64,000 nt of DNA, taken from NCBI GenBank assembly GCA_002284855.1, contig CP015603.1, positions 1-64,000 of the forward strand. Direction: 5' to 3'. Each line of letters starts with the position of its first letter. The stretch's first letter is position 1. This document shows, in pieces, positions 19,834 through 26,317 of this stretch. The notes below the pieces were generated by a model. The model worked only from the letters and a program-made list of their open reading frames with translations, was not told the origin of the DNA and searched no databases. This DNA comes from Actinobacteria bacterium IMCC25003 (GTDB lineage Bacteria > Actinomycetota > Actinomycetes > Nanopelagicales > Nanopelagicaceae). Both the position numbers and the translations under genes were made by a program.

Positions 19834-22152
19834 ATGGAAGATATCCAGATAGATCTCGCTAAGCACCGCGATTCAGACTCTGATTACTCGCCATCTGAAT
19901 CTGCGCCCTTACTTGCTCAAACTTTTGCAGTGACAGGTATGACCTGCTCGGCCTGCGTTAACAGTATTGAGCGCACTCTTAATGAGATGGATGGCGTATC
20001 TGCTTCAGTTAACTTCGCATCAGAGACCGTGCATGTACTCGCCCCAGCAAATCTGCCTGCCGAGTTAGTTATTAAGAAGATCAAAGCAGCTGGGTATGGG
20101 GCAACGCTCCTCAGCAATAACTCTGATCCAGCACTTCATCGAAAAGGTGCAGCCCGCGCACTCATTTTCGCAATTCTCTTAGCAGTGCCATCGATTGCAA
20201 TATCAATGGTTATGAGCTGGCATCCGCCAATCAACGATTGGTTAATTGCTCTCTTCAACGATTATTCAATTCCATTGCCGCCACATGCACACCATCTCTT
20301 TGCATCATGGCTCGTTCTCGTAATCAGTGCACCACTTATCTTTATCGTCGCCTTCCCGATTCACCGCGCAGCAATCAGAAATATCTTTCATCCAACGATG
20401 GATACCCTGGTTTCGCTGGGTTCACTGAGTGCATATATCTGGTCGGTTTATGCGACGTATACAGCACAAGGTGATGTCTATACCGAAGTTTCTGCCGGCG
20501 TTCTTCTCTTTGTCATTCTCGGTCGCTTCCTCGAATCGCGAGCAAAGCGCAGCGCAGGAAGCGCTCTCTCCACACTCTTAGCGCTCGGTGAGAAAGAGGT
20601 TGCTGTGCTTCGAAACGGCACTGAGGTTCTTATTCCTATCTCGCATCTTGTAATTGGTGATGAGTTTGTTGTGAAGCCAGGTACACGCATAGCAACCGAT
20701 GGCGTTGTCATTTCGGGTCAGAGCACGGTCGATAATTCCTTGATTACAGGTGAATCCACTCCCATAGAGATAAACCCGGGGATGTCTGTCATTGGATCTG
20801 CGCTCAATAACAACGGTCGCCTCATTGTGCGCGCTACTCGTATCGGTAGCGATACCGAGCTCGCCCGCATCACAGCAATGGTTGTTACTGCGCAAGGTAC
20901 GAAAGCTCCGATTCAAGCTCTCGCCGACAAGATTGCATCTATCTTTGTACCCGTTGTCACAGTTCTAGCTATTGGAACTTTTGAAGGTTGGTATTACTTC
21001 GGAGATAAATCTCTGACCTACTCAATCTCTACTGCCATTACAGTCCTTGTTATCGCCTGTCCCTGTGCACTGGGGCTAGCAACACCTGTGGCACTCCTTG
21101 TTGCATCAGGACGTGGGGCGCTGCGCGGCATTGTTATCCGCCATCCGCGCGTACTAGAAGCTTCACATTCCATTACTACGGTCGTTCTTGATAAGACTGG
21201 AACACTCACAGATGGAGCGATGAAGGTGCAACAAGTTTCAATTCCAGTATCAGCGCAGAAAGTTTTCGGCGCCTCCTTTGCGACACTTATCAATGAGAAA
21301 AGTGTGCTCTCTTCTGCTCTCGCCCTTGAAAGTCAGAGTAACCATCCAGTTTCACAAGCAATCGTCTCTTACTGCATTGCACGTGGTGCTCAGCAACTTC
21401 CTGTCACTGACTTTAATCAAACACCAGGCGTAGGGGTCGCCGGCCGTGTACGCATTGGAGATCAATCTCCGGTTGTCATCATCGGCTCGCCAGAATCAGT
21501 TGCACATAGCTCAGTTCCCTTTAATGCAGAGATTGAGAGCGCCATCCGTGATGCTCAATCTCACTCCTTTGCTGTCGCAGTTCTTGCCTGGGATGGAGTT
21601 GCGATCGCTGTCTTTGCCGCTGGTGATGTCATTAAGAAAGATGCCGCTGCAACAATCGCAGCGCTTCAGAGTAAGAAGATTGATACCTGGCTATTGACTG
21701 GCGATAACCCTGAAGCCGCTGCCAAGGTAGGAGCATCAGTCGGAATTTCCGCAGACCACATCATCGCCCTAGCTAAGCCTGAAGATAAGCTAGCCAAGAT
21801 CTCCTCTCTGCAATCTGAAGGAAAACGCGTTCTTATGGTGGGCGATGGCGTCAACGATGCGGCGGCGCTTGCGCAGGCAAATTTGAGCATTGCAATGGGA
21901 ACCGGAACTGATACTGCAATTGCGACTGCAGATATCACCATCATGCGTCCGGAACTAATGAGCGTCGTTGATGCACTTGCACTGTCGAAGCGAACACTGC
22001 GCACCATCAAAGTAAATCTAGGGTGGGCATTTGCCTACAACGCAGTTGGAATTCCTATTGCAGCAGCAGGGCTCATGTCACCGATGTATGCGGCGGCAGC
22101 CATGGCCTTAAGTAGTCTCTTTGTTGTGACTAACTCATTGCGCATTAAGTAA
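19834..22152 (+). CDS. copA: Copper-transporting P1B-type ATPase
   Basis: Copper efflux pump of 772 residues. It has an N-terminal heavy-metal-associated domain with MTCSAC (about 36-41), eight predicted membrane helices, the transmembrane CPC motif in ACPCALGLATP (about 408), the phosphorylation motif DKTGTLT (about 452) and the hinge GDGVNDAAAL. The CPC type with a CxxC HMA domain points to Cu(I). It starts 2 nt after the hisN stop, so it may be co-transcribed with hisN, a pairing without an obvious functional link. Confidence 0.93.
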   Translation: MEDIQIDLAKHRDSDSDYSPSESAPLLAQTFAVTGMTCSACVNSIERTLNEMDGVSASVNFASETVHVLAPANLPAELVIKKIKAAGYGATLLSNNSDPALHRKGAARALIFAILLAVPSIAISMVMSWHPPINDWLIALFNDYSIPLPPHAHHLFASWLVLVISAPLIFIVAFPIHRAAIRNIFHPTMDTLVSLGSLSAYIWSVYATYTAQGDVYTEVSAGVLLFVILGRFLESRAKRSAGSALSTLLALGEKEVAVLRNGTEVLIPISHLVIGDEFVVKPGTRIATDGVVISGQSTVDNSLITGESTPIEINPGMSVIGSALNNNGRLIVRATRIGSDTELARITAMVVTAQGTKAPIQALADKIASIFVPVVTVLAIGTFEGWYYFGDKSLTYSISTAITVLVIACPCALGLATPVALLVASGRGALRGIVIRHPRVLEASHSITTVVLDKTGTLTDGAMKVQQVSIPVSAQKVFGASFATLINEKSVLSSALALESQSNHPVSQAIVSYCIARGAQQLPVTDFNQTPGVGVAGRVRIGDQSPVVIIGSPESVAHSSVPFNAEIESAIRDAQSHSFAVAVLAWDGVAIAVFAAGDVIKKDAAATIAALQSKKIDTWLLTGDNPEAAAKVGASVGISADHIIALAKPEDKLAKISSLQSEGKRVLMVGDGVNDAAALAQANLSIAMGTGTDTAIATADITIMRPELMSVVDALALSKRTLRTIKVNLGWAFAYNAVGIPIAAAGLMSPMYAAAAMALSSLFVVTNSLRIK

Positions 22153-22160
22153 AGCGAGAT

Positions 22161-22892
22161 TTAGTTCGTTTCCTCTGGCTCGGGCTTCATGGTGCGCCAG
22201 ATTGAAATAGCGGCGATATAGAGCGGGAATGCACTCATTAAAATCTCTGAGATAAGTTGATGATGAATTCCTATCTCATTGGAGTAACTCCATGAGAGAT
22301 AAAAGAGATTGGCGATGTATAGAACTCCAAATGGCAAAGTGATGAATCGCAGAGCTTTCACGCGGACTATATGTGGGAATTTGAGCATCGTTAATTGAGA
22401 GAAGCAGAGAATTAAGGTGACGATTGCCACCGTATTTGGTCTCAGATCGAGCACTAAATACGTCGGCACAGCAAGGTTCCATACAGCTGGAAAACCATTG
22501 AACCAATGATCGTCAGTCTCAATATCTGTACGTGCAAACCAGAGAGCAGACATTAAGAGAATAAGTCCTGCGATAAGCGTTTGAAATTCATGAGGGAGTA
22601 GCTCGAGTCTCACAAGGAGTGCGACTGGTACAACGACGCAGGTTAAGTAATCGACGATGAGATCGAGAACATAGCCATCTACTCGTGGCGCATGAATGAC
22701 GACATCAATTTTGCGAGCAATAGGACCGTCAAGGCCGTCAAGAACCTGACAAATTACCAACCAGATAAGAGCGCCACGAATATTGCTGTCGATAACAGCC
22801 TGAAGAGCAAGGAGTCCAGCAACTGCACCACTTGCGGTCATTACATGGAGCGCGTAACCAGCTCTCTTACTCTTCTGTTCCGATGTAGCCAC
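22161..22892 (-). CDS. pcs: Phosphatidylcholine synthase-like CDP-alcohol phosphatidyltransferase
   Basis: Integral membrane enzyme of 243 residues with about eight helices. The CDP-alcohol phosphotransferase motif is present: Asp52-Gly53, Asp55-Gly56, Ala59-Arg60, then Gly73, Asp77 and Asp81. The gap between Ala-Arg and Gly is 12 residues rather than the usual 8. From memory this spacing, the opening ALHVMTASG and the DHWFNGFPAVWN segment match bacterial phosphatidylcholine synthases, which condense choline with CDP-diacylglycerol. Another head group cannot be excluded. It starts with GTG, 5 nt after TATTCT, and converges on copA. Confidence 0.72.
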   Translation of the reverse strand: MATSEQKSKRAGYALHVMTASGAVAGLLALQAVIDSNIRGALIWLVICQVLDGLDGPIARKIDVVIHAPRVDGYVLDLIVDYLTCVVVPVALLVRLELLPHEFQTLIAGLILLMSALWFARTDIETDDHWFNGFPAVWNLAVPTYLVLDLRPNTVAIVTLILCFSQLTMLKFPHIVRVKALRFITLPFGVLYIANLFYLSWSYSNEIGIHHQLISEILMSAFPLYIAAISIWRTMKPEPEETN

Positions 22893-22936
22893 ACTTTAGA
22901 ATATCTCTAAATCACTTCAGCGCCTACCATGAGCAC
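22893..22936. promoter_or_regulatory. Divergent compact promoters of pcs-like gene and membrane protein gene
   Basis: The 44-bp gap has TACCAT (22925-22930) exactly 6 nt before the ATG at 22937 on the plus strand. The minus strand has TATTCT 5 nt before the pcs GTG. No ribosome binding sites are visible. This is consistent with leaderless expression in both directions. Confidence 0.5.
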
Positions 22937-23344
22937 ATGAGGCCGCGCGATCTACTCCAATACTTAGAAGATGCTGAGGCGCGCCGCAAAGGTTTGCGCA
23001 TCTGGATATTTTTAGTTCTCGCCTGGTCTATCGCTCGGTCAATTGTTGTTGCGAAGGTCTTTGCTGAATACGGCTTAAATCCACAGCTCTACTTTGCGAT
23101 CGACTTTCTCTCATCGATTCCCTATGCCTATGCATCGGCACAATCACTTCTGGCATACATTGATAAGAAACGATTTCAATCTATTGCATGGGGTCTCGTT
23201 ACAGTCGCTGCGTTCTATCTACCTGACATCTATATTGTTATTGCATCTCGACATGTTCCGCCATCAACCTATCTAGGATTTGCACTGATTTTGGCGGTCT
23301 TATCGGTTCTGGCATATGCGCAATGGAATGAGAAAAGGCGCTGA
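22937..23344 (+). CDS. Conserved-looking small membrane protein, function unknown
   Basis: The 135-residue protein starts with a charged amphipathic segment (about 1-20), followed by four hydrophobic helices (about 22-40, 50-68, 80-100 and 107-125) and a basic tail. I do not recognise a family. It is expressed from its own compact promoter. Its stop codon lies inside a perfect 28-bp palindrome that could form a hairpin. Confidence 0.7.
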   Translation: MRPRDLLQYLEDAEARRKGLRIWIFLVLAWSIARSIVVAKVFAEYGLNPQLYFAIDFLSSIPYAYASAQSLLAYIDKKRFQSIAWGLVTVAAFYLPDIYIVIASRHVPPSTYLGFALILAVLSVLAYAQWNEKRR

Positions 23345-23359
23345 TATCAGCGCCTTTTC
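23332..23359. terminator. Perfect 28-bp palindrome at the end of the membrane protein gene
   Basis: The two 14-nt arms, 23332-23345 and 23346-23359, are perfectly complementary, with flanking A and T runs of four. On either strand the RNA gives a G+C-rich hairpin ending in UUUUC, so it could terminate transcription from both directions: the rightward gene and the leftward initiator tRNA. It overlaps the TGA stop (23342-23344). The central GCTGATATCAGC is shared with the inverted repeat at 28900-28932. Confidence 0.6.
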
Positions 23360-23373
23360 ATGCCTTACTTCAT

Positions 23374-23450
<77 letters not shown>

Positions 23451-23512: not shown

Positions 23513-26317
23513 TTACTTACGTGCTTGCGCAGCAACTGCAGCCGCGATTGCTGCCTTCAATCGATCTTGTGCTCGACCATATGCAGCAAAGTCACCCTTT
23601 GCAAGAGCTGCTTGTCCATCTGCAATCGCTTGCTTCGCACTTTGTAGTGCACTTGCAAGGTCTGCTGAACTATTTGTTGTAGGTGCGTTTGATGTATTTG
23701 AGTTAGTACCAGAGTTTCCACCAAATACCTGATCAAGTGCACCCTTGAGTGAACTATCGAATCCAATTACATCACCGAAGGAGACAAGCACTTTCTGCAG
23801 AAGTGGGTAGGCAGATGCGTTACCTGTTGCGCGAACGTAGACAGGTTGTACATAGAGCAGACCATTTCCAACTGGAAGTGTGAGCAAGTTTCCAAGGACT
23901 ACATCAGAACCACCTTGACGCAAGAGCGAGAGCGCATTTGCGACATCAGGTTTTGCCTCGAAGTTAGAGGCAACCTGTGATGGACCTGCAATGTTGGTGC
24001 TTCGTGGAAGCTGAAGAACGGTGATCTTTCCGTAGTCAGCACCTGCAGTTGAATTTACTGAAGCAAATGCTGAAAGGTTCTCGCGTCCACCGCGCGGTAC
24101 AAATGGTGTTGTCAGTGAGAATGTAGGAGTTGCAGCCCCTGGCATCTGAAGCGTCATGTAATACGGTGGCTGTGCGCCAGCGTTAGCTCCGAAGGTAGAT
24201 GGGTCGCGAGGTACGCGCCAGAAATCTTGTCCGCCGTAGAACGCTGCTGCGCTCTTGACGTGATATGAACTCAAGATGTCGCGCTGTACGCGGAACATAT
24301 CTTCTGGATAGCGGATGTGCTCGAGAAGGCTCTTCGAGATCGCGCTCTTTGCCTTCACTGTATTTGGGAAGGCCTTCATCCATGTCTTGAGGACAGGATC
24401 CTTGGCATCCCATTGATACAAGGTGACTGTTCCATCGTATGCATCGACAGTCGCTTTGACTGAGTTACGGATGTAATTGACTGCCTTATTGGATTGCGCA
24501 GTAATCGATGTTGAATTTGCAGTCAGAGCATCATTAGTCGCCGTTGCAAGAGATGTGGACTTTGAATATGGGTAACCAGCACTTGTTGTGTAGCCATCGA
24601 TAATCCATGTGATCTTTCCATCGACGACAGCTGGGTATGGATCTCCATCCAAGGTGAGCCATGGAGCAACCTTGGCAACGCGCTCACGTGGTGCGCGGTT
24701 GTAGAGAATCTTTGAATCTGAGTTAATCAAGTTAGAGAGCAAGATGCGCTGTTCGCCGTATTTAATGGCAAAGAGCAACTTATTGAGAGTGCTTCCAACT
24801 GGAACTCCACCCTTACCTGTGTAGGTGTAGTTCTTCTGACCATTGGCAGATGTGTCATCTGGATAGTCGAATTCGACTGGAGAGTTGCTCTTCTTTCCAC
24901 CAATGATGGAGTAATCAGGAACGTTCTCGCCGAAGTAGATGCGAGGTTCAAACTTGCCAAGACCCTGAGTTGGTGGAAGGTCGCCCACTAGGAAGTTCGG
25001 CTTTCCATCTGCATCCACTTGGTTTCCATACGCGGCAACGAAACCAAATCCGTGTGTGTAGACAAGGTGATCGTTGATCCAGTTACGGCTTGGGTTGCCA
25101 TTAATATTGAGTTCACGAACTGCAACAACCGCATCGCGAGAAACGCCATTGACCGTGTAGCGATCTATATCGAGTGATTCTGGGAAGGTGTAATAAGGCT
25201 TAATTTGCTGGAGCTGACGGAATGTCGCAGAGAGAACGTTGGGATCCATCAAGCGAATATTTGCGATTGTTGCTGCATCTTTAGCGAGCTGTCCTGCACT
25301 CGTCGACAAAGTTGCGTTGTAATCCTGCATCTCAACGCCATTGAGGTCGTAGGCAGCACGTGTTGCATCGATATTGCGCTGAATAAATGGCGCTTCCTTC
25401 GATGATTCAGATGGCTTTACCTGGAACTGTTGAATCGCACCTGGGTAAATGCCTGCGATAAGTACAGATGAGACAACGAGAAGCGCTGTTCCAGCAGCTG
25501 GCAGGAGCCATGAGCGGCGCACAATATTGGCAAAGAAGAGAAGGGCGCAGACAACAGCGATAGCAGAGAGGATTGCCTTCGCAGGAAGTGTGGCATTGAC
25601 ATCTGTATAAGTAAGACCAGTGATCAACTTATTCTCTTTGAGAGCAAGTGAGTAACGGTCGAACCAGTAGGCAACAGACTTTAGAAGAACGATGAGTCCG
25701 AGTAGGACGGAAATTTGAACGCGTGCCGCAACCGTTGTGCGATCAGTCTGAACATTGGTGCGGATTCCGCCATACATGTAATGGATAAAGGCTGATGCAA
25801 GAGTTGCAAGGACCAAAGTTGAGATTGCCCAACCAATGATTGCCTGCCACATTGGTAAGCGGAATGCAAAGAATGAAATATCTAAACCAAATTGTGGATC
25901 TTTCACTCCAAAATCTGTGGAGTTCTTAAAGAGCATCCACTCGCGCCAGAAGACCATTCCTGAAGTTCCAGCGAAGTAGGTAAGGACTAGAACAATTCCA
26001 AGAAATACCCAACGACGAATCGGTTCGACCTGAGCGCGAAGGCGCTCGAGCCCACTGATTTCAATACTTGTGGGAACGTAGAGCGGACGACGCTTATATG
26101 CGAGATAAATATTGAGTGAAATCGTTGCAGAGGTGAGAAGACCCACAATCGCAAAGAGTTGAATCTTGGTAATCAGAACCGTCGACCAGACCGATGTGAA
26201 ATCTACCGATTTAAACCAGAGCCAATCGATGTAGTAACCGCTGAAGTAAGTGACGAGCGCACCCAGTGCGACGAGAATTGCTGCGGTAATTACAAGCGGA
26301 CTGCGATTTCTATTCAT
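23513..26317 (-). CDS. UPF0182 family large membrane protein
   Basis: The 934-residue protein has seven predicted membrane helices in the first 300 residues, then a large extracytoplasmic region of about 550 residues with many aromatic and Gly residues. An Ala/Asn/Ser-rich linker (near 865-890) leads to a short Ala-rich C-terminal helix. The architecture and the stretch SGYYIDWLWFKSVDFTSVW identify UPF0182, found throughout actinobacteria but with no established biochemical role. Its start overlaps the ylbL-like stop by 4 nt. That gene precedes it here, as in other actinobacteria. Confidence 0.93.
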   Translation of the reverse strand: MNRNRSPLVITAAILVALGALVTYFSGYYIDWLWFKSVDFTSVWSTVLITKIQLFAIVGLLTSATISLNIYLAYKRRPLYVPTSIEISGLERLRAQVEPIRRWVFLGIVLVLTYFAGTSGMVFWREWMLFKNSTDFGVKDPQFGLDISFFAFRLPMWQAIIGWAISTLVLATLASAFIHYMYGGIRTNVQTDRTTVAARVQISVLLGLIVLLKSVAYWFDRYSLALKENKLITGLTYTDVNATLPAKAILSAIAVVCALLFFANIVRRSWLLPAAGTALLVVSSVLIAGIYPGAIQQFQVKPSESSKEAPFIQRNIDATRAAYDLNGVEMQDYNATLSTSAGQLAKDAATIANIRLMDPNVLSATFRQLQQIKPYYTFPESLDIDRYTVNGVSRDAVVAVRELNINGNPSRNWINDHLVYTHGFGFVAAYGNQVDADGKPNFLVGDLPPTQGLGKFEPRIYFGENVPDYSIIGGKKSNSPVEFDYPDDTSANGQKNYTYTGKGGVPVGSTLNKLLFAIKYGEQRILLSNLINSDSKILYNRAPRERVAKVAPWLTLDGDPYPAVVDGKITWIIDGYTTSAGYPYSKSTSLATATNDALTANSTSITAQSNKAVNYIRNSVKATVDAYDGTVTLYQWDAKDPVLKTWMKAFPNTVKAKSAISKSLLEHIRYPEDMFRVQRDILSSYHVKSAAAFYGGQDFWRVPRDPSTFGANAGAQPPYYMTLQMPGAATPTFSLTTPFVPRGGRENLSAFASVNSTAGADYGKITVLQLPRSTNIAGPSQVASNFEAKPDVANALSLLRQGGSDVVLGNLLTLPVGNGLLYVQPVYVRATGNASAYPLLQKVLVSFGDVIGFDSSLKGALDQVFGGNSGTNSNTSNAPTTNSSADLASALQSAKQAIADGQAALAKGDFAAYGRAQDRLKAAIAAAVAAQARK

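Follow-up and report, generated by a model that had tools for sequence, protein, structure and literature searches.

The window analysed here, the first 64,000 nucleotides of contig CP015603.1, carries copA, pcs, mp135, tRNA-Met and UPF0182 in that order (Table 1). An earlier note on this DNA had read the second of these genes as an enzyme of the phosphatidylcholine synthase (Pcs) type; the open reading frame that it delimited proved exact and lies on the minus strand, which the note had not given. Upstream of the GTG start, the TAnnnT box is retained as TATTCT, TACCCT or TATCCT with much the same spacing to the start in five related loci (L007, L008, L043, L016 and L009), while the spacer surrounding it diverges, and its sequence suggests that it may act as the promoter of a leaderless pcs transcript. 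The bacteria concerned belong to the acI actinobacteria, whose cells are some of the most numerous in lakes. The source genome is a single contig of 1,353,947 bases (GC near 49%) from strain IMCC25003, an acI-A1 strain whose genome contains an osmoprotectant ABC transporter (PMC5301498) and which has been named 'Ca. Planktophila rubra' and cultivated with catalase (PMC8353197).

Table 1. Features of the pcs locus and its borders, with positions in the window.
Feature	Position	Strand	Remarks
copA-type heavy-metal P-type ATPase	19834..22152	plus	left border; stop 8 bp from pcs stop
pcs-type gene	22161..22892	minus	243 aa, GTG start, single ORF; predicted CDP-diacylglycerol:choline O-phosphatidyltransferase
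block F131-N-G-F-P-A-V-W138-N139	22476..22502	minus	Pcs signature
CDP-alcohol phosphotransferase motif, D52-D81	22650..22739	minus	Pcs-type 12-residue gap
block H16-V-M-T19-A20-S-G22	22827..22847	minus	N-terminal Pcs signature
TATTCT, -10-like TAnnnT box	22898..22903	minus	5-nt spacer to pcs GTG (six bases upstream)
mp135, uncharacterised 135-aa four-helix membrane protein	22937..23344	plus	head-to-head with pcs, 44-bp spacer
inverted repeat AAAAGGCGCTGATATCAGCGCCTTTT	23333..23358		3' end of mp135
tRNA-Met (CAT)	23374..23450	minus	borders the variable spot containing pcs
UPF0182 membrane protein	23513..26317	minus	right border; served to place relatives

The protein encoded by pcs contains an intact CDP-alcohol phosphotransferase motif, D52-G53-x-D55-G56-x2-A59-R60-x12-G73-x3-D77-x3-D81 (pattern DG..AR-x12-G...D...D), in which R60 and G73 are separated by 12 residues, as opposed to 8 in the aligned PssA, PgsA, cardiolipin and PIP synthases. 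In an alignment of 26 Pcs-type sequences, D52, D55, G56, A59, R60, G73, D77 and D81 were invariant, as were F131, G133, F134, P135, W138 and N139 of the second block, while H16, T19, A20 and G22 of the N-terminal block were kept in at least 90% of the sequences. Both the 12-residue gap and the flanking segments that the earlier note had likened to alphaproteobacterial Pcs enzymes are present: every one of the 26 sequences, or more than 90% of them, retains H16..T19-A20..G22 and F131-N-G-F-P..W138-N139, with the exception of N132, which is conserved solely within the acI set. F134, W138 and N139 occur in the Pcs set and are absent from the PssA rows of the alignment, and W138 together with nearby aromatic residues are candidates for binding the ammonium group of choline. 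An AlphaFold2 model of the protein (mean pLDDT 84, pTM 0.82) was compared with solved structures by Foldseek, and the sole PDB matches at E ≤ 0.001 were to phosphatidylserine synthase (7b1k and 7pow; TM 0.58-0.62 over the query, 18-20% identity). A profile search of PDB sequences likewise returned phosphatidylserine synthase entries alone, so that no Pcs structure was found in the copy searched.

Pfam assigns the protein to the superfamily level only, by a match to PF01066 (CDP-OH_P_transf) of 25.7 bits against a curated cut-off of 22. The five NCBIfam Pcs models (NF045884-NF045888) matched it with E-values of 6.5e-41 to 3.3e-34 (119-140 bits), far more strongly than did the pssA model (E 2.8e-12), although it stayed below the curated cut-off of all five (best 140 vs 300 bits), cut-offs that serve as a lineage-specific naming rule and do not define the enzyme. 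As a control, the annotated Pcs proteins of S. meliloti, Pseudomonas and Legionella each passed their own model and scored 119-240 bits on the models of the others, and a PssA protein matched none of the Pcs models. Since scores across established lineages also lie below the cut-offs, the low score of the window protein is no bar to membership and, being within the cross-lineage range, it is that of a Pcs from a lineage without a model of its own; it also means that no curated rule settles the substrate.

Phylogenetic analysis led to the same assignment. One tree combined PssA rows with the remaining four CDP-alcohol enzymes that the genome encodes, namely PgsA, a PIP synthase, a ClsA-like protein and L004, to which no class was assigned; in it all Pcs-type rows grouped together. 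In a larger tree they were split from PssA with support of 100/100. The window protein showed neither a match to PgsA, PIP synthase or cardiolipin synthase models nor a grouping with these enzymes, so that the placement with PgsA or PIP synthases by which the earlier note was to be judged was not found, and it likewise had neither the 8-residue gap nor a grouping with PssA. The motif, the Pcs blocks, the NCBIfam scores with their control and the trees thus uphold the claim of a Pcs-type enzyme in an actinobacterium. Among the Pcs-type rows sampled, those of acI form the deepest branch: the Pcs proteins of the Nanopelagicaceae, together with L099 from another family, lie outside a group of proteobacterial and other actinobacterial Pcs, although several rows are long branches, which makes the deep branching order unsure. 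The window protein stands at much the same distance from every known Pcs lineage, with 34% identity to S. meliloti Pcs, and an AU test rejected a clade of acI Pcs with S. meliloti Pcs (p-AU 0.003) but not one in which the acI rows form a single clade (p-AU 0.146). The particular tie to alphaproteobacterial Pcs that the earlier note had drawn was therefore not borne out, and the window protein belongs to an actinobacterial Pcs lineage.

The gene is under purifying selection and its conservation exceeds chance: compared with homologues of the same genus, pN/pS was 0.09-0.31 (pN 0.07-0.25, pS 0.71-0.81), a rough measure given that synonymous sites are near saturation. Its distribution is patchy. 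Of 60 relatives drawn, 9 had pcs, all of them from the genus of the window (37 genomes drawn), and none was found in 23 other families of the class, each represented by one genome; in the family as a whole it is carried by 33 of 201 genomes and 10 of 17 genera. A Pcs model had strong hits in additional families of that class, a broad profile added Pcs-type matches in other families of the phylum, and no phage-borne pcs was confirmed among viral contigs. The view that phosphatidylcholine (PC) is rare in actinobacteria was thus partly right, as PC marks phospholipid type PIII in actinomycetes (PMC4048454), is found together with pcs in Geodermatophilaceae (PMC9686282), and Pcs-type genes occur in several other actinobacterial families. 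One pcs-positive relative, IMCC26077 (L056), was isolated in a cultivation study in which a stable culture was not maintained. Four public records titled Bifidobacterium breve, Fonsibacter lacus or Streptomycetaceae (L054, L057, L058 and L049) contain a pcs of the acI type, and their titles are probably wrong.

The interval between copA and tRNA-Met (22152-23374 in the window; compared with L187 and L193) occurs in several states, namely empty, with pcs, with pcs and mp135, or with a different frame of 204 aa (G087). In pcs-negative genomes of the same genus copA, tRNA-Met and UPF0182 adjoin without pcs, and G068 has the spot empty of pcs and carries the gene elsewhere. In the pcs-negative locus L187, a hairpin similar to the inverted repeat of Table 1 directly follows copA. 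In a tree of UPF0182 proteins, L187 (genome G110) stands beside the pcs-positive L043 with almost zero divergence, which implies a very recent change in pcs, and four changes were required for the label 'pos'. One older gain at the tRNA-Met spot followed by several losses is the simplest reading, in a tree that cannot separate gain from loss. The gene adjoins tRNA-Ser(GCT) (L019/L047, L020 and L022) or tRNA-Arg(TCG) (L037 and L060) in other lineages; we used tRNA-defined sites alone to type the loci, as sorting by flanking proteins gave one cluster of 33 that was probably joined by common protein families. An integrase-type island was considered and set aside: a direct repeat of the tRNA end was not obvious at the borders of the window site and ten empty sites, which makes plain recombination likelier. 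GC content was 46.8-47.9% in windows over the pcs insert and 47-51% around it, with no clear break in composition. Of the horizontal gain proposed in the earlier note, only the movement of a small cassette among actinobacterial genomes and sites is thus supported, and an alphaproteobacterial source is not.

The neighbouring mp135 had no NCBIfam match and no Pfam family common to its members, and its AlphaFold2 model (pLDDT 84), which consists of four long helices, matched no solved structure. It adjoins pcs in many relatives and at different sites. The mp135 family occurs in 54 of 201 family genomes, with a member in 20 of 33 pcs-positive genomes (19 beside pcs) compared to 34 of 168 without pcs. 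All 18 top-scoring mp135 loci lie beside pcs, in a ranking biased toward such loci by a profile built on pcs-linked copies, and weaker members stand alone among varied neighbours (L175-L186). As five pcs loci of the same genus (L009, L010, L011, L017 and L154) are without mp135, the protein is not required for Pcs in every case. No plasmid copies of mp135 were found. In L062/L153 (G434), a distant member adjoins a proteobacterial-type Pcs; this actinobacterial Pcs groups with the Pseudomonas type and likely reflects a separate transfer, and the mp135-like part of the frame beside it is C-terminal. That pcs and mp135 are a two-gene module which moves between tRNA-flanked sites and switches PC on or off between sister species, with mp135 serving Pcs directly, is conceivable but rather doubtful; if so, mp135 might deliver choline to Pcs, move PC across the membrane or control the enzyme.

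As to the lipid pathway, family searches, on which all gene absences in the source genome rest, found no phosphatidylserine (PS) decarboxylase in the complete genome, and none of its CDP-alcohol enzymes was assigned to the PssA type. Without the decarboxylase, phosphatidylethanolamine (PE) is unlikely to be formed by the usual route, and the two absences together make PC via methylated PE unlikely; PS itself could still be formed, given that L004 has no assigned class. The search for choline transporters that the earlier note had proposed turned up one OpuC-type ABC operon in the genome (binding protein at 1091729-1092523, two permeases and ATPase) at 1.09 Mb; no BCCT transporter was found in any of 30 genomes tested, the source genome included, and the OpuC type is not in all pcs-positive relatives. 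Next to the operon lie genes for an iron alcohol dehydrogenase and an aldehyde dehydrogenase, with matches to models of choline and betaine-aldehyde dehydrogenases that all stay under the cut-off, and the operon can be counted as a candidate system for choline or betaine. The surrounding region (C1:1084000-1100000, L148) also encodes an IclR-type regulator, an enolase-superfamily protein and a 3-hydroxyisobutyrate-dehydrogenase-like protein, the aldehyde dehydrogenase being of betaine-aldehyde type, and it has the look of a locus for the breakdown of a quaternary ammonium compound or a similar substrate. No tight association of pcs with OpuAC-type transporters was seen, as pcs-positive G075, G178, G036, G002 and G250 lack one and several pcs-negative genomes have one; G075, which is complete, lacks BCCT transporters as well as OpuAC-type binding proteins. 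A GDPD phosphodiesterase failed as a tell-tale choline source, for it occurs with and without pcs and was not found in pcs-positive G068 and G178. Choline of algal origin is a plausible source. Our search for published lipid analyses of acI strains returned none.

Taken together, we consider it very probable that the window gene encodes a Pcs that makes PC, and that it belongs to an old Pcs lineage of actinobacteria as an accessory cassette, one that has come and gone repeatedly at the spot beside tRNA-Met and is often, though not always, paired with mp135. This reading draws on the NCBIfam scores and their control, the motif and the Pcs-only blocks, the trees, the fold, the selection on the gene, the missing PS decarboxylase, and the agreement between pcs and PC in Geodermatophilaceae. 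An enzyme of Pcs fold that uses another amino alcohol (e.g. dimethylethanolamine, ethanolamine or serine) and forms a lipid other than PC is improbable: scores below the equivalog cut-offs, a deepest branch with invariant residues of its own such as W130, N132 and C85, and choline uptake that is unexplained in some pcs-positive genomes would all be compatible with it, yet every residue conserved over the Pcs set is retained, the scores match those between established Pcs lineages with the pssA model far weaker, and PS would, without a decarboxylase, not become PE by the usual route.

It is harder still to credit that a phosphatidylserine, phosphatidylglycerolphosphate, cardiolipin or phosphatidylinositol-phosphate synthase has been misread, since the tree joins the window protein to Pcs and apart from these synthases, its gap has 12 residues, and separate PgsA, ClsA-like and PIP synthase genes are already in the genome, even if all belong to PF01066 and the nearest solved fold is that of an enzyme using serine. 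A recent horizontal gain from alphaproteobacteria, which concerns the origin of the gene and not its function, is equally remote: it could account for the shared motif spacing and the patchy occurrence in the family, but is opposed by the rejected S. meliloti clade, the low identity, the lack of a clear GC break at the locus and nearest outgroups in other actinobacterial families.

As a PC-forming Pcs, the gene product would be an integral-membrane enzyme of the EC 2.7.8.24 type. Through its four aspartates, the motif would bind two metal ions together with the CDP-diacylglycerol diphosphate, whose beta-phosphorus would be attacked by the hydroxyl of choline, supplied from outside the cell, with release of PC and CMP. 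From the sequence, PC is expected to be produced in acI cells and may be an optional zwitterionic lipid in the source cell. If some acI species make PC from scavenged choline and their near-identical sisters do not, a streamlined genome would have membrane composition as an exchangeable trait, and algal choline would be linked, on a small scale, to bacterial lipid. The acI genes also widen the known Pcs family and draw attention to the unstudied protein often encoded alongside. Pcs in Actinobacteria is not new in itself; what is new here is its patchy occurrence in acI, the variable spot beside tRNA-Met and the frequent head-to-head pairing with mp135.

Akin to the Pcs of S. meliloti and other bacteria, the window protein has the 12-residue gap, the H..TASG and F.GFP..WN blocks, a similar length and the features of a predicted membrane protein, but at 29-36% identity it falls below every lineage cut-off and on a separate branch, and we found no choline transport gene beside its gene in the window. 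It has the fold, the metal-binding Asp motif and the F.G.P element in common with phosphatidylserine synthase (7b1k and 7pow), which differs in its 8-residue gap, its lack of the WN pair present in the window protein, and serine as acceptor. The Pcs of Geodermatophilaceae comes from the same phylum, and PC is reported by TLC in strains with the gene, presence of pcs agreeing with PC and the gene missing, as expected, in Modestobacter and Klenkia (PMC9686282). In the tree, acI proteins are separate from the Pcs found in other families of actinobacteria (27-35% identity) and, unlike Geodermatophilaceae Pcs, are encoded by an accessory gene that differs between sister species.
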